Positions 10,835 through 41,396 of a DNA stretch of 41,396 nucleotides are shown here, piece by piece. Below the pieces are notes generated by a model. The model ran no database searches, was not told the DNA's origin, and saw nothing but the letters and a program-made list of their open reading frames with translations. The first letter of the stretch is position 1; the number at the start of each line of letters is the position of its first letter. This DNA comes from Clostridia bacterium (GTDB lineage Bacteria > Bacillota > Clostridia > Lutisporales > Lutisporaceae), in NCBI GenBank assembly GCA_035628995.1, contig DASPIR010000014.1, forward strand, positions 1 to 41,396, read 5' to 3'. The translations under genes were made by a program, and so were the position numbers.

Positions 10835-11401
10835 CTACATATACCAGATTTCCTTTATGCTGGTGGATATGCCTATAGCACCGGCATTCAGACTCCCAAT
10901 CACATCCTCTTTATCCCTTATCAGGCCGCCCGCTATAACTGGAATTCTGGTTTTGCTATGAACCTCTCTAATAACCTTGGGTATTATACCGGGTAAAATT
11001 TCAACAGCATCCGGCTTCGTTGAGTGCAATGATTCTATCCCACTTGCTAAAGATAACGAGTCCAGCGCAAAGAGCCTTTGTATGATGAATATGCTGTTAT
11101 TCTTCGCTATCTTTATAAGACTGCTTTTTGTCGTTATTATCCCATCAGGCTTTATATTGTCGTGGAAATATTTTAACGTTACGGCATCCTTTGAAAATCC
11201 CTCTATCAAGTCAATATGTACAAGTACACACTTTCCTGCATCTTTAAACTTTTCAACGATACTTTTTATATTGGAAATGTCACCCTTCAACAGAAAAACT
11301 ACATTGCATGGTGATTTAATTGCAAGGTCAATATTGTTGAGATCATTTATAGCAGCAATAATCGGGTTTTTATAAATCATAGTATAAAATTCATTTGACA
11401 T
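10835..11401 (-). CDS. glpP: Glycerol-3-phosphate-responsive antiterminator GlpP
   Basis: GlpP folds as a TIM barrel, binds glycerol-3-phosphate and then prevents termination in glp leader RNA. The protein (188 residues from the ATG) shows the family's segments: an HIDLIEGF strand near 65, DGIITT near 90, AVEILPGIIPKVI near 135 and the phosphate-binding end AGGLI-x-nAGAIGIST near 155-180. The length is normal. The ATG at 11401 has GGGAGG seven bases ahead; a TTG one codon earlier is less likely. It is the first gene of the glp set and lies 30 bases downstream of a sigma-54 promoter. Its probable RNA target is the terminator at 8331-8392. Confidence 0.93.
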   Translation of the reverse strand: MSNEFYTMIYKNPIIAAINDLNNIDLAIKSPCNVVFLLKGDISNIKSIVEKFKDAGKCVLVHIDLIEGFSKDAVTLKYFHDNIKPDGIITTKSSLIKIAKNNSIFIIQRLFALDSLSLASGIESLHSTKPDAVEILPGIIPKVIREVHSKTRIPVIAGGLIRDKEDVIGSLNAGAIGISTSIKEIWYM

Positions 11402-11430
11402 CAAAATACCTCCCTAATTTAATTTATTAT

Positions 11431-11835: not shown

Positions 11836-11865
11836 AGCACTACATTCTATATAGAATGTAGTGCT
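11823..11865 (-). terminator. Intrinsic terminator after the chemoreceptor unit
   Basis: A perfect palindrome with 15-base arms (AGCACTACATTCTAT / ATAGAATGTAGTGCT, 11836-11865) is followed on the minus strand by a U-rich run (11835-11823). It ends transcription from the chemoreceptor and the decayed binding-protein gene before the glp control region. Confidence 0.85.
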
Positions 11866-12024: not shown

Positions 12025-13671
12025 CTATATCTCCATACCTGCTGACAATACCCCTATTACCTGATTCATCTCATCCATTATGGGTGCTGCTACATTTACA
12101 CCTAATCTATTGGATTGGCTGGATACAAATGGTACGGATACATTTGGTCTACCCTGTGAAGCCTCTTGGAACCAAGGGCGGTATATGACAGTTTCAGTTT
12201 TTTTCTCGCTTGTTATATATATACATTCTCCATTCATATCTCTTGATCCAATGAATAAAAAACCGAATTTATTTGCTTGCTCCTTAAAAACCTTTCTTTG
12301 CATTTCAATATTACCTTTTCTCACAAACTCTTCCTTCGAAAGCTTTATCAATTCAACCTTGGCCTTTTCTATATCCGCCTTGACCTCCTCAGGAATTTGA
12401 TATTTAGCAATTATCCCAGTGGATATATTATGTAAATCATTCGATATGGAATATAACGTTTCTGCATTATCTCTTATACCTTCAAAGGACTCCATCTGCT
12501 GCTCACTTGAAGCCGCAACCTCCTGGGCACCTGCTGCCGTCTCCTCCGACACAGCTGCCATTTTTTCAGCTGCATCCAATACTATTCGAACATTGGATAC
12601 CTGATTTAATGACAAATGTTTAATACTTCCCATTGAGCCGTCCAGTTCATTAATCCCATTTACCATCTCATCAAAAAATACGCTTGAGCTTTCGCCTCTA
12701 TTGATATTCTCCTTTGCCTTATCCTGACCTCTTATGATTACCTCTGCTGCTTTATTGGCTTCAGCCTGAATTTCCATGGCAATAATTCTGATCTTTTCCG
12801 CTTCCCTGGAAGATTGCTCGGCCAATTTCCTTACCTCTTCTGCCACCACCGAAAAACCTCTACCATGTTCTCCAGACCTTGCAGCTTCTATTGCTGCATT
12901 TAGAGCTAACAAGTTAGTCCTTTCAGCGATTTCTGTAACTATATTGACAAAATCAGTTATTTTTGATGTCTTATCCTTCAGATTTTTCATGCTTTCCACT
13001 GAGTTGCTGCTATCTTCTGCTGATAATTTTAAGTGTTCCAACAGACCTTCCAAAACTTTTTTTGTATCCTCAACCTTTAATACTATGTTCTTTATAATAG
13101 CCTCGCCTTTACCCGTTTCATGATCAATCTCCTCTGCCATGCCTACCAGACTGGTTATATTTTCTGATGTTTCCTGGGCTGCCAGAGCCTGTTCACTTGC
13201 CCCTTTAGCAATTTCCTCTATTGATACTGCAATTTGCTGAGCTGCAGTATTTGCATTTTCTGTTTCCTTTGCAAGATTATCCACATAAAAATTCAGTTGA
13301 TCCGATGTTCTTTGCATCTTCCCAATCATTCTTAAAAAACCTTCTAAAATCTGTTCGACTGACTTAACAACTTGAAGTAGGATTTTGTCTTTGATTTTTA
13401 TACCTTTTGATTTTTTCAGATATGCAGCTATATCGCCATCTTCAGCTTCAGCCAAGTGTTTTGAAATGCCAATAAAAGACTTGAACCATAAATGATAAAT
13501 TACCGGAGCTAGGAGCATAACCACAGCCAGGGTAATTAGAAGAAATACAACTGAATTGTTAATAACACTTTGCAATATGCTTTGAATAATGTAATAGATC
13601 AAAATAGGCGTCCATAAAACCAATACCAGGCTAAAAAAGTTTTGAAATCTGTTTCTGCTAATTGAGTTCAT
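12025..13671 (-). CDS. Methyl-accepting chemotaxis protein with C-terminal Cache-like segment
   Basis: A chemoreceptor of 548 residues. Two membrane helices (about 12-32 and 38-60) are separated by only a few residues, so there is no extracellular sensor. A linker leads into the methyl-accepting coiled coil, with the conserved hairpin tip [19 protein letters not shown] around 250-270. After the signalling domain, about 110 residues end with a motif ([19 protein letters not shown]) typical of the second half of Cache/PDC sensor domains, so sensing may occur in the cytoplasm at the C-terminus. RBS GGGAGGAG precedes ATG. A palindromic GntR-type site lies 136 bases upstream (13807-13829). The gene ends where a solute-binding protein remnant begins, so the very C-terminus could have been altered by that rearrangement. 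Confidence 0.88.
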
Positions 13672-26172: not shown

Positions 26173-27675
26173 CTATGCGTAAATATACTCTTCAATCAAC
26201 TTACGCTCAAGCTCTTCTATGGTTGTCTCCGTGCTTAATACCTCCGACACCACATTACCCTGGTTCATTACCATTATTCGGTTACAAATCATCAATATCT
26301 CAGGAATATCATCCGATATCACTATTATGCCTATACCTGTTTTAGCTAGATTTTTGATTACTTCATGTATTTCGCTTTTGGAGCCTACATCCACTCCAAC
26401 AGTCGGGCAGTTTAGTATAAGTATTTTGGGGTTTGCTGCAAGCCATTTAACAAGAACTACCTTTTGCTGGTTGCCTCCAGATAGGGATTTTGCTTGCTTG
26501 TCATATGCCATCCCCTCAATCTTTATGCTATTTAAGCCTTTCTCCATCTGTAATTTCATCTTATTTTTGTCGAGGTTCTTTATTTTTCCTAAGAGTTTGT
26601 CAATAATGCAAATCACTGAGTTTTCACCTATAGTCTGTTCCATATGAAGCCCTTCAGTGAGTCGGTCCTCCGGTACATATCCAATATTGCTTTTTATAGC
26701 ATCTTGGACACTCTCCATTCTTGTTCGTACCCCATTCACAAAAATCTCGCCACTACTAGCTGGCATAAGTCCGAAAAGCGATTTCGCAAGTTCGGTTCTC
26801 CCACAGCCGAGAAGACCTGTGATTCCAAGAATCTCCCCAGGCATCAGATTAAAGCTTACATTAGAAAAATGATTGGTTAAGCTTAAGTTCTTAACCTCCA
26901 TAAGCGACTTTTCATCTTTTAGTTCAAAGATGTATGGCTCCGCTTCAATTTCCTTACCTGTAATATAATAAATGAGTTCTCTCTTGCTTAAGTCCTTTGC
27001 ATCTCCATCAAAAACGTTCATTCCATTTCGTAAAACTGTAATCTTCTGCGAAATTGTTAGCACCTCATCCAACTTATGGCTTACAAACAGCACTGCAATT
27101 CCTTTTTTATGCAGCTCCTCAACAATATTATAGAGAGATATGATCTCTTTATAGGTAAGTGCAGTTGTTGGCTCATCCATAATGATTAGTTTTGCATCCT
27201 GAAGTATGGCTCTAGCTATTGCTACAAGTTGCTTCTGTGCTACATTCAAATCGCCAACCAGGGCATTTAAGTCTATAGTAATCCTCAGGTTGTCTAGTGA
27301 TTTTTGCGCCATGTCCTTCATTTCCTTCCAATTGACCATCTTCCGATTTTGTGAAAGAAATGAATTCATAGTAATATTCTCGGCGACTGTCATGTTTGGA
27401 AAGAGAGAAAAATCTTGATAGATTATCTGTATACCTTCTTTGATTGATTCCATCGGACTAATTTTTTTGCAATGCTTACCATTAATGAAAATATCTCCGC
27501 TATCATGTGTATAAAAGCCTGAAATAATTTTTATAAGCGTTGATTTACCGCACCCATTTTCACCAATCAAACAACGAGACTCACCAGCTTCAATGGAAAA
27601 ATCAACATCATTTAGAGCTTTCACACCATAAAACGCTTTGTTAATACCCTTTAGCTCAAGTAGTTTTATACCCAT
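26173..27675 (-). CDS. Sugar ABC transporter ATP-binding protein (RbsA/MglA-like)
   Basis: A duplicated ATPase of about 500 residues that powers the CUT2 transporter. The first half has Walker A GENGCGKS and an atypical signature (LNVAQKQLV), with Walker B LIIMDEP; the second half has a degenerate P-loop GLLGCGRTE and a good LSGGNQQKV signature, with Walker B KILILNCPTVGVDVG. This asymmetry is normal for the family. NCP replaces the usual DEP in the second Walker B, so the second site is probably inactive. I prefer the ATG at 27675 (AGTAGGA six bases ahead) to an ATG six codons upstream (27693), which has no binding site. It is 135 bases downstream of the binding-protein gene, with a stable hairpin between. 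Confidence 0.9.
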   Translation of the reverse strand: MGIKLLELKGINKAFYGVKALNDVDFSIEAGESRCLIGENGCGKSTLIKIISGFYTHDSGDIFINGKHCKKISPMESIKEGIQIIYQDFSLFPNMTVAENITMNSFLSQNRKMVNWKEMKDMAQKSLDNLRITIDLNALVGDLNVAQKQLVAIARAILQDAKLIIMDEPTTALTYKEIISLYNIVEELHKKGIAVLFVSHKLDEVLTISQKITVLRNGMNVFDGDAKDLSKRELIYYITGKEIEAEPYIFELKDEKSLMEVKNLSLTNHFSNVSFNLMPGEILGITGLLGCGRTELAKSLFGLMPASSGEIFVNGVRTRMESVQDAIKSNIGYVPEDRLTEGLHMEQTIGENSVICIIDKLLGKIKNLDKNKMKLQMEKGLNSIKIEGMAYDKQAKSLSGGNQQKVVLVKWLAANPKILILNCPTVGVDVGSKSEIHEVIKNLAKTGIGIIVISDDIPEILMICNRIMVMNQGNVVSEVLSTETTIEELERKLIEEYIYA

Positions 27676-27741
27676 TCCCATTCCTACTTTCATGACATTT
27701 TGCTAAATGTTTGCATTAAATCTTTTTCCATACATATAAGA

Positions 27742-27782
27742 CATTTGGATGAAATAAGCATCATTCTTATTTCATCCAAATG
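27742..27782 (-). terminator. Intra-operon hairpin between binding-protein and ATPase genes
   Basis: Perfect 17-base arms (CATTTGGATGAAATAAG and its complement) enclose a seven-base loop. No U-tract follows on the minus strand, so it is better seen as an mRNA-stabilising or attenuating hairpin that keeps the binding protein in excess of the membrane subunits. Confidence 0.6.
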
Positions 27783-27810: not shown

Positions 27811-28854
27811 TTAGAAGTTATAGTCTCCCATATTGTCTTTTGTAACGTCGACCCAAGCTGCTCCGAATATCAGCTTACCTTCAACAAGTACCTTGTTGTA
27901 TCCTGGTACACCGAGATCCATGCCATCTGTAATTGGCTTGTTTTCTTTAACAAGAGTTATTATTTTAGCCATTGCTTGTGCTGCAAGACCTGGATCCCAG
28001 AAAGTAATTCTGCTGATTGAACCGCTTTCAAGGTATTGTTTGGACATTGATACCAGTGAAGTACCAACACATTTAATCTTGCCTGCGTTTCCAGTCTCTT
28101 CAAGTGCAAGTGCAATTCCTGGCGGATTAACAGCATCCATTCCGATAACTCCACCAAGGTTTGAATATGCTGTAATAAGTTCTTTTGCTTTAGCATAGGC
28201 ACCTTGTTGACCAGCTGTACCTGACTCAACATAAGATGTTACAAGCTTCATTTCTGGATATTTCTCTTTTTGCCTGGCTACCGCTCCATCTGCCCACTCA
28301 AGGTGTGTCTGCATTGTAAGACCACCAACCATAATAGCGTATTCACCCTTGCCTCCCATAAGTTCGGCTAGCGAATCCATAAGGTGCGCACCATAGTCCG
28401 CATTCTTGAAAGCTTCAAGGTCAAAGTCAACGTTCTCTAGGTTTGAGGCCTCATGACTAACTACGATTATTCCTTGATCCCTTGCCTTTTTTAACACAGG
28501 CTCAAGAGATTTTGGATCAACCGGGATAACGGAAATTCCAGTAACTTTTTGTGCTATGACGTCCTCAAGTACGCGAACTTGTTGGGATGCGTCAGGCTGT
28601 GTTGCACCAGTCTGGAAGATTTCGACCCCTTTATTGTCTTCAACAAACTTTTTGTTCCCCTCATTAAATCTGTCCCACCATGCAATTCCGATCATCTTTG
28701 GTACGTTTGCAATTGTTATTTTGCCATCACTTGATGGAGTTTGTTCCGCTGCTGCATCCCCCGTAGTTGTTTGTGGTGCCGGGCTGCTGCATCCACTAAA
28801 CACCAGTATAAGGCTAAGCAACATTACAAGAGCGAATGAAATTTTCCTTTTCAT
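27811..28854 (-). CDS. Sugar-binding lipoprotein, LsrB/RhaS-like
   Basis: The periplasmic-type binding protein of the CUT2 transporter, anchored as a lipoprotein: a signal peptide ends in the lipobox FSGC with Cys22. The 347 residues form a two-lobed type-1 binding protein most like LsrB and RhaS: the opening VPKMIGIAWWDRF, the hinge block WDPGLAAQAM near 285 and the end NMGDYNF are shared features. Of the autoinducer-2 contacts known in Salmonella LsrB, the first Lys is kept, but the later Asp and Asp-Gln positions read His-Glu and Thr-His, so autoinducer-2 is unlikely. It is the first gene of the operon, behind a consensus promoter (28887-28915). Confidence 0.9.
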   Translation of the reverse strand: MKRKISFALVMLLSLILVFSGCSSPAPQTTTGDAAAEQTPSSDGKITIANVPKMIGIAWWDRFNEGNKKFVEDNKGVEIFQTGATQPDASQQVRVLEDVIAQKVTGISVIPVDPKSLEPVLKKARDQGIIVVSHEASNLENVDFDLEAFKNADYGAHLMDSLAELMGGKGEYAIMVGGLTMQTHLEWADGAVARQKEKYPEMKLVTSYVESGTAGQQGAYAKAKELITAYSNLGGVIGMDAVNPPGIALALEETGNAGKIKCVGTSLVSMSKQYLESGSISRITFWDPGLAAQAMAKIITLVKENKPITDGMDLGVPGYNKVLVEGKLIFGAAWVDVTKDNMGDYNF

Positions 28855-37427: not shown

Positions 37428-37595
37428 ATTTCCCCCATTCCCATTTGAAACCGTCATAGATGTAACTATATCAGGGCATCTTGAGATGGTTCTTTATGGT
37501 TATATTATATTCGACATATTGAATGTCTGCTTGAATTTTGGTACAATTGGAATATTATAACACAATATATTAGAATAGATTGCGAGGTGAACTCA
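37428..37595 (+). promoter_or_regulatory. Gap with promoter of the gntR gene
   Basis: No strong terminator follows the aldolase gene. A candidate promoter is TTGAAT (near 37532) with TATTAT about 16 bases on. The spacer contains TTGGTACAATT, a partial match to the TTGTA-N-TACAA sites at 32072-32109, which would allow weak self-repression. Confidence 0.4.
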
Positions 37596-38237
37596 TTGTC
37601 TCGAACAGGCAAGAAAGCATATGAGATAATTAAAGAAAGAATTCTTGATGAAACTTATGCACCAAATGAACCCTTAGTGGAATCAACACTAGCTGAAGAG
37701 TTAGGTGTTGGCCGCAATACAATCAGGCAAGCATTATTGCATCTCGAAGGAGATAAGCTTATTGAAATGCAAGAAAATAGAAGTGCCATTGTAAAATATC
37801 CTACCAAGAAAGAAGTCATCCACCTCTTTGAGATAAGGGAGCGCCTTGAGGGCTTGATCACATATTTTGATGCGGTAGATTTGACAGATGAGGATCTTAA
37901 CGCACTTAAAAATTACATTACTGAGATGAAACAGTATCTGAGCCAGAGTCAATTAGTTGAATACTCTAATACAAATGATAAATTTCACAAAGTTCTGTAC
38001 GAAGGTTGCACTAATAAAGAAGCCGTTAGGCTACTGAAAAGTATCAATTTGCAGCTGAGAAGATACAAGAAAAGAACCATCCTCATTACTGGCCGAGGTG
38101 ATACTTCCTGTAAAGAACATGAAATGATTTATGAAGCTTTAATGCTCCGTGATTCGGACGCCGCAGAAGCTGCAATGCGTAAACATGTTCGAAATGTGAG
38201 AAAAACACTAGTAGCGAATTACGAAATTTTATATTAG
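37596..38237 (+). CDS. GntR-family (FadR/FCD) transcriptional regulator
   Basis: A 213-residue regulator with an N-terminal GntR winged helix (LVESTLAEELGVGRNTIRQA, then LLHLEGDKLI; about 25-65) and a C-terminal FCD effector domain of six to seven helices. FCD metal ligands are plausible: an Asp in the TNDKFHKVLYEG helix with its nearby His, and His in CKEHEMIYEAL near 172 and MRKHVRNV near 194. FCD regulators commonly sense carboxylic acids, matching the cluster. TTG at 37596 has GAGGTG six bases ahead and is preferred to a GTG three codons earlier that overlaps this site. Its likely operators are the three sites at 32072-32109. A strong terminator follows. Confidence 0.92.
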   Translation: MSRTGKKAYEIIKERILDETYAPNEPLVESTLAEELGVGRNTIRQALLHLEGDKLIEMQENRSAIVKYPTKKEVIHLFEIRERLEGLITYFDAVDLTDEDLNALKNYITEMKQYLSQSQLVEYSNTNDKFHKVLYEGCTNKEAVRLLKSINLQLRRYKKRTILITGRGDTSCKEHEMIYEALMLRDSDAAEAAMRKHVRNVRKTLVANYEILY

Positions 38238-38270
38238 TATTGCAGGTAGTATTTAATATTTTGTCTATGG

Positions 38271-38315
38271 GATACCTCCCAAATGGAAATAATCCATTTG
38301 GGAGGTATCTTTTAT
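38271..38315 (+). terminator. Intrinsic terminator ending the catabolic cluster
   Basis: Perfect 16-base arms (GATACCTCCCAAATGG and its complement) with a seven-base loop, followed by TTTTAT. It cleanly separates the gntR gene from the BlaI unit. Confidence 0.9.
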
Positions 38316-38400
38316 AGGAAGATCTTGATCTTTTGATTGACGTTTTTCTCTATACTCTCCGAATTTAATCCGATTAGTTGCGGATTTAACTTACATAAAT

Positions 38401-38434
38401 ATTTGTAAAGACTATCGAAATAGTCTTTACAAAT
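38401..38434. promoter_or_regulatory. Perfect 15-base palindrome upstream of blaI-like gene
   Basis: ATTTGTAAAGACTAT and its exact complement flank CGAA. The second arm contains TTTACA (38425-38430), which may serve as the -35 box of the blaI-like gene, with TAGTAT (38449-38454) as -10 after 18 bases. It can act as an operator or form a stable hairpin. Confidence 0.55.
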
Positions 38435-38436
38435 GT

Positions 38437-38478
38437 AGACTACTGCGGTAGTATATAAATATACTACCGCAGTAGTCT
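38437..38478. promoter_or_regulatory. BlaI-type double operator (perfect 20-base palindrome)
   Basis: Twenty-base arms, AGACTACTGCGGTAGTATAT and its exact complement, flank AA. Each arm is itself a dyad of the BlaI/MecI kind (ACTAC-N4-GTAGT), so two repressor dimers could bind side by side. It overlaps the likely -10 region and ends two bases before the Shine-Dalgarno of the BlaI-like gene, so self-repression is expected. Confidence 0.75.
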
Positions 38479-38490
38479 GGAGGTTTTATT

Positions 38491-38847
38491 TTGGAAACAG
38501 TAAAATTATTTGACAGCGAACTTAAAATTATGGACATTGTGTGGGATAAAGAGCCTGTATCGGCAAAGGAAATTACCCTTATAGCCGCCGAAACAATCGG
38601 CTGGAATAAGAATACAACTTATACCATTATCAAAAAACTTATCGAAAAAAAAGCAATTGAACGGACTGAACCGAACTTTATCTGCACTTCGCTTGTCAAA
38701 AAAGAAGATGTACAGAAGGCTGAAACCCAAAGCCTTATCAACAAGCTTTATAACGGCTCTAAGAAAGTTTTTTTTGCCGCATTCATTGAAGATGATATTT
38801 CTGATGATGAACTTGAGGTGTTGAAAAAGCTGATAGAAAAGAGGTAG
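38491..38847 (+). CDS. BlaI/MecI/CopY-family transcriptional repressor
   Basis: A 118-residue winged-helix repressor of the BlaI/MecI family. The DNA-binding part (about 5-70) includes LKIMDIVWDKEPVSAKEITL and NKNTTYTIIKKLIEKKAIER; the C-terminal dimerisation helix ends with DDELEVLKKLIEKR. Start is TTG with GGAGG seven bases ahead. It is followed three bases later by an M56 protease gene, the classical signal-transduction pair in which the membrane protease triggers loss of the repressor. The palindromic operators just upstream fit this family. No beta-lactamase or PBP gene is present here. Confidence 0.93.
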   Translation: METVKLFDSELKIMDIVWDKEPVSAKEITLIAAETIGWNKNTTYTIIKKLIEKKAIERTEPNFICTSLVKKEDVQKAETQSLINKLYNGSKKVFFAAFIEDDISDDELEVLKKLIEKR

Positions 38848-38850
38848 TCT

Positions 38851-39762
38851 ATGCTATGCGAAATATTCTACTGGGTACTTAATATGGGTATCATCGGCAG
38901 TGTTGCCGGATTGGTTGTTTTGTCACTGCGCAAAATCAAAGCTCTGCCGCGTTTTGCGGTATATGTCTTATGGGCTCTTCCTCTCATCAGGTTGTGGCTG
39001 CCTTTTGGAATTGCCAATGAATACAGCCTGCTAAGCCTGATTTCAAGATTCACCACAAAAACAGTGGTTATCTGGGAAGAGCTGCCGCAGCTCACAACCA
39101 CCAACAGTATAATGGTGGCAAACAGCTATTTCCCTATTGAATACAAAACTGACCTGCTTGAAAATGTGTTTAATGTCGCATCGGTAGTTTGGATTATAGT
39201 TTGCTGTGCTGCCATTCTGACCTCATTGTTGTTATACATCTTTACAAAATCGGAGTTGAAGTCGGCGGAGCCTATAAAAGGCAACATCTACAAATCTGAC
39301 AGAGTCACTGAGACCGCTGTATATGGTGTTATTAGTCCCAAAATCATTATTCCTGCTGCTATAGCTGATAAGGATATAGATTATATCATCCTGCACGAAC
39401 AAGTGCATATAGAGCGCAGGGACAATCTGTTTCGTGTTGTTGCCGTGATAACTGCGTGCGTTCATTGGTTCAATCCTCTTTTGTGGATATTCTTAAAATG
39501 CTTTTTTGCCGACATGGAGCTTGCGTGTGATGCAAAGGTTTTGAAGTGCCTGAACGAAAGACAAACCAAGGAGTATGCTCGCACCATTCTTACCTGCGCC
39601 TCCGGCAAAACTTTCTTTGCATCGGCTTTTGGCGGAGCAAAAACAAAGGTGCGAATTGAAAATATATTGTCATATAAAAAGCTTACGCTTTTATCGTTAC
39701 TCTGCTTTGCTGCATTGGTAGCGGTAATTGCTGTAATCATTATCACGAATGCGACTGTTTAG
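38851..39762 (+). CDS. Short M56-family (BlaR1-like) membrane metallopeptidase
   Basis: A 303-residue integral membrane zinc protease with four predicted helices (about 5-25, 35-52, 106-130 and 280-300). The zinc motif HEQVH lies at 188-192, and the downstream Glu of MELACDAKVL near 227 completes the site. It ends right after the last membrane helix, so it lacks the extracellular penicillin-binding sensor of BlaR1. It is coupled to the BlaI-like gene (3-base gap) and is followed by a small lipoprotein gene (11-base gap) that may supply the missing outer part. The signal is unknown. Confidence 0.9.
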   Translation: MLCEIFYWVLNMGIIGSVAGLVVLSLRKIKALPRFAVYVLWALPLIRLWLPFGIANEYSLLSLISRFTTKTVVIWEELPQLTTTNSIMVANSYFPIEYKTDLLENVFNVASVVWIIVCCAAILTSLLLYIFTKSELKSAEPIKGNIYKSDRVTETAVYGVISPKIIIPAAIADKDIDYIILHEQVHIERRDNLFRVVAVITACVHWFNPLLWIFLKCFFADMELACDAKVLKCLNERQTKEYARTILTCASGKTFFASAFGGAKTKVRIENILSYKKLTLLSLLCFAALVAVIAVIIITNATV

Positions 39763-39773
39763 GAGGTGCTTTT

Positions 39774-40166
39774 TTGAAAAGAGTATTTTTTATAATGCTG
39801 GCTGTTGCCTTGTTACTGACAGGATGTGCAAAGCCGGAAAGTAACAACCTGATAAAGGCAGACAATATTACAATTTTTTATGGCGTTTCAAGTTATGCTA
39901 TGTTTAGTGCAGATCAATCGGTCATTGATGACTTGCTTAACCAGTTCAACTCTCTCAGCTTTGAAAAAACCACAGAGGAAATGGATTTAACAAGTGCCTT
40001 TCATGTGAATTTTTCCTATAATGGGAACGGTGTTAAAAGCTTCTGGGTTGATAAGAACGGCGTGTTTTGGCTTGACGGTGAAACGCAATGCTATAAGGTT
40101 TCTTCCGGCTCATTTGATTATCAGCATTTAAAAGCAATATATAATGACAGTAGAACATCCCAGTGA
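39774..40166 (+). CDS. Small lipoprotein of the BlaI-M56 unit
   Basis: A 130-residue lipoprotein: the signal peptide ends in LLTGC (Cys18). The mature part shows a compact alpha/beta pattern (NITIFYGVSS, then DDLLNQFNSLSFEKTTEE, NFSYNGNGVKSFWVD and ending HLKAIY) resembling the extracellular tails attached to longer M56 proteins of clostridia. No named family is recognised with confidence. Start is TTG behind AGGAGGTG. Its place directly after the short M56 gene suggests that it is the detached sensor or an inhibitor of the protease. Confidence 0.75.
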   Translation: MKRVFFIMLAVALLLTGCAKPESNNLIKADNITIFYGVSSYAMFSADQSVIDDLLNQFNSLSFEKTTEEMDLTSAFHVNFSYNGNGVKSFWVDKNGVFWLDGETQCYKVSSGSFDYQHLKAIYNDSRTSQ

Positions 40167-40278
40167 AAACAGCATTTGTGGTTATTTCTATAATCCAACA
40201 GAATGATATTTATTGCTAGATAACTCTTATTCAAAATTTATTTAGCTGATCTTGGCTATTATGAAAGGATAGAGATTC

Positions 40279-41220
40279 ATGAAATATAAAAATTTTTATT
40301 TACTGTCGCTGCTTGCGATTATTTTAGTATCTGTTTATCCCATATACATGGGCGTTGTAACGTTGGGCAGTTATTTGCAAAATGGATCTATTGATGTGGC
40401 TGATTATAAAAAATACATCATACCATACACACCTATATGTATTTCGTTAATTATTTCGACCGCACTCATGCCGCTAATCTTTAAGCTATTCAAGCGGTAC
40501 ACTCTAGCTGTCGTTTCATTTTTGGGAACCGTAATATTCTTTGTTTCCGAATTCGGGTTTGAACAGATCAAGGTGATTGAGGGATATGTGGAAATGCCCC
40601 TTGAATCATGGCAATTAAGCTTGTGCATGGCAACTCCGGAGGTTCTCCGCTCCATCGGCGAGCCCATCTATGCAGCGAATAATCCGGCTTTCAAAATTCA
40701 CTTTTACATAATTGCTATTGTCATCATACTTGCTGTACTGAATATGATATATGGTTTTTCAAAAATGCTCAGAGAGCAGGACTTCGAAAAAAGGCGCCCG
40801 CTGATTGCTCAAGCTGTTTCTGTTGTGCTTTTCATCGGCCTTTGCATACTTGCTTGTTTTTCCGCTTTTTATAGAAACGGCACAATCAATATTTCGACAT
40901 TATCAGCGATACTTATGTCTGTATTTTTCATAGTATTCGGCATTACGGTCGGTATTTATAGTGGCTCTATATTTTATGGAAAAAGCAAGTTGTTATCGAA
41001 GATCATACCTGCGATAGCTGCCTCGTTAACAACACTCATCATGTATATCGGTGAGCTGGTGCTGATGGGTGGAGTGCTTTTCAAATATGGCAATGGGTTC
41101 TTCTTTGAACCTATAGAGGCAATTCCCTTCTCCGCAGCCGACATTGTTATTATTATGGTTTCCGGTGTGATTACATATATCATTATGCAACTTCTTAACA
41201 ACCCAAACAAAATAGAGTAA
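40279..41220 (+). CDS. Multi-pass membrane protein of unknown function
   Basis: A 313-residue protein with seven to eight predicted membrane helices (about 8-28, 52-72, 78-95, 140-160, 178-197, 205-226, 238-262, 285-306). A single larger outer loop (about 98-135) contains EMPLESWQLSL. No catalytic motif is seen and I do not recognise a family. AAAGGATAGAG precedes ATG. It is 112 bases after the lipoprotein gene on the same strand without an obvious terminator between, so it may be part of the BlaI-regulated unit and could be an effector such as a permease or immunity protein. Nothing recognisable follows to the end of the window. Confidence 0.7.
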   Translation: MKYKNFYLLSLLAIILVSVYPIYMGVVTLGSYLQNGSIDVADYKKYIIPYTPICISLIISTALMPLIFKLFKRYTLAVVSFLGTVIFFVSEFGFEQIKVIEGYVEMPLESWQLSLCMATPEVLRSIGEPIYAANNPAFKIHFYIIAIVIILAVLNMIYGFSKMLREQDFEKRRPLIAQAVSVVLFIGLCILACFSAFYRNGTINISTLSAILMSVFFIVFGITVGIYSGSIFYGKSKLLSKIIPAIAASLTTLIMYIGELVLMGGVLFKYGNGFFFEPIEAIPFSAADIVIIMVSGVITYIIMQLLNNPNKIE

Positions 41221-41396
41221 CCGAGATGCATTTCCCATATATTGGTCAAAACTGTGGTGCCAGGGAAACCGCTGAAAAACGGCTATAAAAAATAAGATTT
41301 TTCTTCGGGTTGAATGATTATGCATTGGATTTTTTATCAATTACCTTTATATGTTAAAGTATCTTTGGTTATTCGTATATATAAGCACATATAGCA

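Follow-up and report, generated by a model that had tools for sequence, protein, structure and literature searches.

Concerted change of mirror-image BlaI-type dyads at a clostridial blaI-M56 promoter

The blaI promoter described here carries an operator of a known type with a real and unusual mode of evolution. Its third dyad, O3, tends to mirror its second, O2, and does so even at the quickly evolving centres of the dyads; this is the new part: the O2 and O3 arms have undergone concerted change in separate lineages. Paired changes across a stem are usually taken to indicate a functional RNA. In this case the signature resembles RNA covariation and probably arises on DNA, by copying at hairpins: only one of the two operators lies in the predicted transcript, and the paired changes therefore probably come from DNA hairpins formed during copying. 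If this is true, the promoter is a warning that covariation alone is not enough to call an RNA structure, and its relatives are a natural promoter set for measuring template switching. The work also describes a blaI-M56 operon, predicted to be autoregulated, in which no penicillin sensor was found.

Palindromes, dyads and promoter

The promoter lies near the end of the window, by which we mean the whole 41,396-base stretch of DNA that was analysed (Table 1). A preliminary description had placed two perfect palindromes two bases apart in front of a BlaI gene, one of 34 bases (15-base arms) and one of 42 bases (20-base arms), and both are exact. It had read the second as a mirror of two BlaI-type dyads; this is correct, and palindrome 1 adds a third dyad. 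The gene behind them does encode a BlaI-type protein, with the Penicillinase_R repressor domain of the BlaI/MecI systems. Long exact palindromes had been called unusual, and the counts agree: the window holds five inverted repeats whose arms, 12 or longer, match perfectly across a short loop, both palindromes among them, and five mononucleotide shuffles of the window hold none. The two palindromes are far beyond chance.

Table 1. Promoter features and operon genes, with their positions in the window
Feature	Position	Strand	Description
Hairpin	38271..38309	+	17-bp arms, then TTTTAT; 3' of GntR-family gene (37587-38237); outside operator
Palindrome 1	38401..38434	.	arms 38401-38415/38420-38434, 15-bp perfect, 4-nt loop; contains O1
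O1 dyad	38409..38426	.	AGACTA-N6-TAGTCT; within palindrome 1
-35 element	38426..38431	+	TTTACA; in palindrome 1
Palindrome 2	38437..38478	.	arms 38437-38456/38459-38478, 20-bp perfect, 2-nt loop; O2/O3 mirror images
O2 dyad	38437..38454	.	AGACTA-CTGCGG-TAGTAT; covers promoter spacer and -10
-10 element	38449..38454	+	TAGTAT; inside O2; 15/15 close loci
O3 dyad	38461..38478	.	ATACTA-CCGCAG-TAGTCT; in 5' leader
Shine-Dalgarno	38479..38483	+	GGAGG; 7 nt 5' of TTG start; GGAGG or GGGGG in 15-locus alignment
blaI-type repressor	38491..38847	+	118 aa; PF03965 E 8.6e-23, 81.3 bits vs cut-off 22.6
M56 (BlaR1-type) membrane protease	38851..39762	+	303 aa; HEQVH motif; PF05569 E 4.2e-44, sole Pfam match
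Putative lipoprotein	39774..40166	+	130 aa; operon member; no Pfam match; 11/15 close loci
Putative membrane protein	40279..41220	+	313 aa; operon member; no Pfam or NCBIfam match; 13/15 close loci

The hairpin upstream of palindrome 1 is probably the terminator of the GntR-family gene, and it is absent from the terminator-like sites given by a terminator scan. Elsewhere in the window, a perfect 30-bp palindrome with 15-bp arms and no loop (11836-11865) sits between reading frames 10835-11404 and 12025-13671, and a 17-bp perfect inverted repeat with a 7-nt loop (27742-27782), possibly a terminator, separates the minus-strand frames 26173-27693 and 27811-28854.

All three dyads share the motif ACTAY-N4-RTAGT (motif starts 38411, 38439 and 38463), which in the 18-bp form reads AGACTA-N6-TAGTCT or its TAGTAT/ATACTA variant. 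A sigma-70-type promoter with a 17-nt spacer runs through them; in a promoter scan, the promoter-like sites of the region were not above shuffles (3 vs 2.5). To see what relatives keep of this arrangement, we used 41 related loci taken from named genome contigs and further matches from wider genome sets. A tblastn search over all collected loci gave 112 rows, which are 92 distinct promoters. The 15 loci, window included, whose BlaI proteins are at least 70% identical form the close clade. The footprint of promoter and dyads is common to the 15 close blaI promoters, and the O2/O3 arrangement is also found in 32 more distant ones, in keeping with the earlier reading of the dyads as BlaI-type operators. 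In the close loci O2, O3 and the Shine-Dalgarno sequence align, the half-sites are nearly invariant (177/180 matches), and the -35 element, TTTACA in 14 and TTGACA in one, always stands 17 nt from TAGTAT. The dyads are very probably BlaI operators, a role assigned by analogy with the BlaI/MecI family, and their simplest function would be BlaI autorepression. The transcript is predicted, from the position of the -10 element, to start at about 38460-38462; because this element lies inside O2, the mRNA would carry O3 only and O2 would fall outside it.

O1 is the least conserved of the three sites. Both its halves are intact in five of the 15 close loci, one of these with a 5-bp centre, and its right half TAGTCT is found in ten. 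Beyond the O1 dyad, palindrome 1 runs on for 8 bp in either direction, over the -35 element, and it does so in the window only (1/15 loci); the next best locus has 6/8 scattered matches, and by our own arithmetic from local base composition a single locus would show an 8/8 extension with a probability of about 4 in 100,000. Free divergence of the arms among relatives, which the preliminary description had named as the finding that would speak against it, is thus seen for palindrome 1 (O1 5/15) but not for palindrome 2, whose arms covary.

Mirrored change of the O2 and O3 centres

In the 15 close loci, where O2 and O3 are always 6-7 nt apart, we compared the centre of O2 with the reverse complement of O3. 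Over the six centre bases (N6) there are 68 matches out of 90, against 53.5 when loci are permuted (P 0.0003), and the mirror is perfect in five loci, each with a centre of its own, where 0.66 would be expected (P 0.0002). Over the four innermost bases (N4) the mirror matches number 45 of 60, against 33.7 permuted (P 0.0005). A direct, non-mirror match of the N4 bases is not raised in the same 15 loci (34 vs 32.2, P 0.30). With one locus per subclade, the N6 value is P 0.0036 or 0.0054 in two choices of locus; without the window, N6 and N4 both stay at P ~0.003; without the clade of L112-L116, N6 stands at P 0.012 and N4 is weak at P 0.044. The mirror is a tendency: eight of the 15 loci have no perfect N4 mirror, and L109 and L110 match at only one position of four.

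A structure count describes the same arms in other terms. It finds 94.8% of cells paired and a covariation of 0.176 against 0.090, with none of 500 shuffles as high, and slid versions of the structure give 0.008-0.091. Cells changed on both sides number 16, against 6.5 shuffled (0/500 as high). Pairs with a change on both sides, five against 3.4, are reached by 37 of 500 shuffles and are not decisive.

Shared descent was put into a simulation along the CDS tree of 14 loci (L056 left out), with per-site frequencies and 4,000 runs at each of seven rates, in which the arms start as a perfect mirror and then evolve independently. The share of runs that end with five distinct perfect centres is at most 0.0003. 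The observed total of matches, taken by itself, is unremarkable when rates are slow (N4 P 0.61 and 0.17 for the slowest two), and P is at most 0.0013 for N4 at rates that give about the observed diversity.

As a control we took promoters in which the dyads abut (spacer 0-1). Out of 47 other promoters of at least 100 bits, 32 fit the operator pattern and the 15 that did not were left out. The 30 abutting-dyad loci show no mirroring (N4 35/120 vs 36.8, P 0.82, no perfect centre); they differ from the close loci in lineage as well as in spacing, which makes the comparison suggestive only. We also considered a single multi-base event in the arms of the window's own lineage and do not claim it: the near relatives differ from one another, and the polarity is ambiguous between L048, L127 and L110.

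Transcript, hairpin copying and selection as sources of the mirror

To explain these results we propose, as the rather more probable account, a three-dyad BlaI operator around a sigma-A-type promoter, combined with homogenisation of its arms by template switching. By analogy with the BlaI/MecI family, BlaI dimers on O1, O2 and O3 would block RNA polymerase and repression would be lifted by the M56 protease in response to a signal, such that the operon of blaI, M56, lipoprotein and membrane protein genes would regulate itself. During replication, O2 and O3 would pair as a DNA hairpin, and repeated template switches (quasipalindrome correction) would rewrite either arm to match its partner. Changes in the centres of the dyads would then come in matching pairs, though one arm only lies in the predicted mRNA. 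The arms of palindrome 2 would be so perfect because template switching at the hairpin homogenises O2 and O3, and palindrome 1 may owe to the same process its 8-bp extension over the -35 element, which is found in this lineage only. Template switching as the source of the mirrored arms, taken by itself, we hold to be evenly balanced: the statistics establish the concerted change, and the mechanism is one we infer. It would fit mirrored rather than direct matching, the many different centres, arms set apart by a spacer, and the way palindrome 1 is extended.

The preliminary description had also suggested that the palindrome could act in RNA, as a hairpin next to the ribosome-binding site. For the operon's own transcript this is not supported. 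The two arms are not predicted to be transcribed together from the operon's own promoter in any of the 15 loci, the -10 element lying within O2, and the native leader with O3 alone folds like its shuffles (-6.2 kcal/mol, z -0.07); only read-through RNA would form the long hairpins (-53.1 kcal/mol, z -12.3). No Rfam family reaches its gathering score in 37500-41396, and a known RNA element was rejected. A stem under selection as RNA would be expected to accept G-U more readily than A-C. The mismatched centre cells of the 15 loci comprise 11 G-T, 8 A-C and 3 others, and the whole arms have 11 G-T and 10 A-C mismatches: there is no significant G-U excess and no clear RNA signature in these cells.

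Read-through does leave room for an RNA-level account, in which transcripts from upstream fold both arms and bury or crowd the Shine-Dalgarno sequence, only own-promoter transcripts are translated, and selection on the RNA keeps the pairing; IS10 transposase fold-back inhibition is a precedent. We think such insulation rather unlikely. The contrast in folding between read-through RNA (z -12.3) and native leader (z -0.07) speaks for it, as does a left flank that complements the Shine-Dalgarno sequence, with at least four contiguous pairs in 5/15 loci and up to nine in L117, where GGGGG faces CCCCC. Likewise, the 18-bp arms of L056 hold Watson-Crick or G-U pairs only, and the upstream DNA varies between loci (by eye). 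However, the centre mismatches have no clear G-U bias (11 G-T, 8 A-C), the stem leaves the window's own Shine-Dalgarno sequence unpaired with no flank pairs at all, a probable terminator lies upstream at 38271-38309, and in L115 a GGGGG Shine-Dalgarno sequence stands with a left flank CTCC, without covariation.

Selection could also act on the DNA, if the promoter needs two BlaI sites of matched affinity and the asymmetric halves AGACTA and ATACTA favour the mirror orientation. The near-invariant half-sites (177/180) and the keeping of the dyads across the family are what plain selection for equal sites would leave, but five different perfect centre pairs mean that no single centre is required, and centres are unmatched in the 30 relatives with abutting dyads; this explanation is unlikely. 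Very improbable, in our judgement, is one inherited inverted duplication of an operator with no continuing process behind it. Strict mirrored pairs are indeed rare (11/45 genomes of the Desulfosporosinus family, 2/390 of the class of the genome carrying L051), and abutting relatives lack mirrored centres, as a single event would have it. Perfect mirrors of different centres in different lineages count against it, however, as do the simulations from a perfect mirror, which give five distinct perfect centres at no more than 0.0003. We regard as quite doubtful a further reading, in which the O2-O3 palindrome is a DNA hairpin or cruciform switch kept by selection with the help of template switching. 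Since O2 and O3 are reverse complements, extrusion would make of each arm a duplex with a complete BlaI operator; BlaI could then bind linear or extruded DNA, and extrusion would remove the -10 element from the linear promoter.

Known systems, operon and spread among relatives

Three operators, OP1-OP3, are described for the BlaI/MecI systems of Bacillus licheniformis and Staphylococcus aureus (PMC3305447). The present system resembles them in its dimeric PF03965-type repressor, its several operators at the repressor's own promoter and its adjacent M56-type protease. The probe for B. licheniformis OP1 contains TACATATGTA (PMC3305447), and O2 and O3 here have TAC-N4-GTA in the same register. 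The differences are a core of ACTAY-N4-RTAGT with no TACA/TGTA core, the TAC-N4-GTA register being confined to O2 and O3; a single promoter with three dyads, of which two mirror each other right into the centre; and an M56 protein on which no penicillin-sensor domain was found, in an operon where no beta-lactamase gene was seen. CopR-CopY has two paired operators proposed to block the -35 element and RNA polymerase (PMC7253601). It is alike in its related repressor family and its two operators, and unlike in its consensus, RNYKACANNYGTMRNY. NCBIfam CopY_TcrY scores far below its cut-off on the BlaI of the window (55.8 vs 121.95 bits).

Template switching at quasipalindromes is established in E. 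coli, where it perfects arms, with lacZ reporters and a thyA hotspot (PMC7202029), reported for yeast genes (PMC8604942) and proposed to create and maintain the hairpins of RNA genes in evolution (PMC8794818). What these cases share with ours is an imperfect inverted repeat with a short spacer, in which the two arms come to be identical; ours differs in concerning repressor operators that straddle a promoter, across species, and in being inferred from sequence comparison. Among the matches listed, no paper has template switching in bacterial operators in its title, which is not proof of absence.

The BlaI protein matches MecI and BlaI structures in a phmmer search (MecI 1okr, E 1.2e-11) and is the only PF03965 match of its own genome. 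In the M56 protein Pfam finds no penicillin-binding sensor domain, and NCBIfam blaR1_generic scores 93.3 bits against a cut-off of 400. Beta-lactamase genes were not seen in the operon, whose two other genes have no Pfam match. The predicted fold of the lipoprotein (mean pLDDT 79.7) has no PDB match at E<=0.001. These lipoprotein-like and membrane-protein-like members are candidates for a sensor that replaces the missing penicillin-binding domain. By tblastn, the 15 close loci have BlaI in all 15, M56 in 14 (one partial), the lipoprotein in 11 (in pieces in one of them) and the membrane protein in 13 (whole or partial, some in pieces), counts that are affected by the end of the DNA examined, which cuts some of the loci.

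The genes upstream of the operon in the window, which we take to be of TRAP and RraA type with a GntR-family neighbour, are in none of the 14 other close loci over the 810 to 5,000 nt of upstream DNA examined. The DNA upstream of O1 is also mostly unlike between loci (by eye), and the operon with its promoter may thus be a transferable unit. As for vehicles, viral spread was rejected, a tblastn search of viral contigs with BlaI giving no relative; eleven plasmid records match BlaI, all below 60% identity and the best at 34%. A wider regulon in the window's own genome was likewise rejected: each strand has 21 copies of ACTAY-N4-RTAGT and 60 of the reversed control, so there is no genome-wide excess. 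The longer GACTAY-N4-RTAGT has five matches elsewhere in that genome, all unpaired, and the two inspected both lie in reading frames.

BlaI matches at E<=0.001 were found in 60 of 99 genomes, own included, and in none of five other genomes of the window's own genus. At E<=1e-36, two of 22 genomes of its order match, own included, and further matches lie in 12 of 397 genomes. In the family of a Desulfosporosinus carrier, 13/45 genomes match at E<=1e-25. A strict pattern for the mirrored pair occurs in 11 of these 45 genomes and in two of the 390 in the class of L051's genome, with no hit for the reversed control in either set.

Mirrored pairs also stand in front of other genes. The loci L098-L102 are from Desulfosporosinus genomes. 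In L098, L099 and L102 the gene behind the pair encodes a putatively exported protein of ~500 aa that has no Pfam match; behind the pair of L100 lies a similar-looking frame, and in L101 the pair is followed first by a short blaI-like remnant. A second blaI-M56 operon is present in L103, and after it lies another gene of this putatively exported kind. The putatively exported proteins of L099 and L101, the two that were compared, are 56% identical. In L098-L100, three of the five loci L098-L102, the palindrome spans the -35 region to beyond GGAG. The four central bases of L098-L102 are TGCA, which is self-palindromic, so these centres cannot separate mirror from direct copying. Finally, in another genome, G861, the mirrored-pair pattern matches twice (L154 and L156), with partly matching centres, and these are possible independent mirrored cases.
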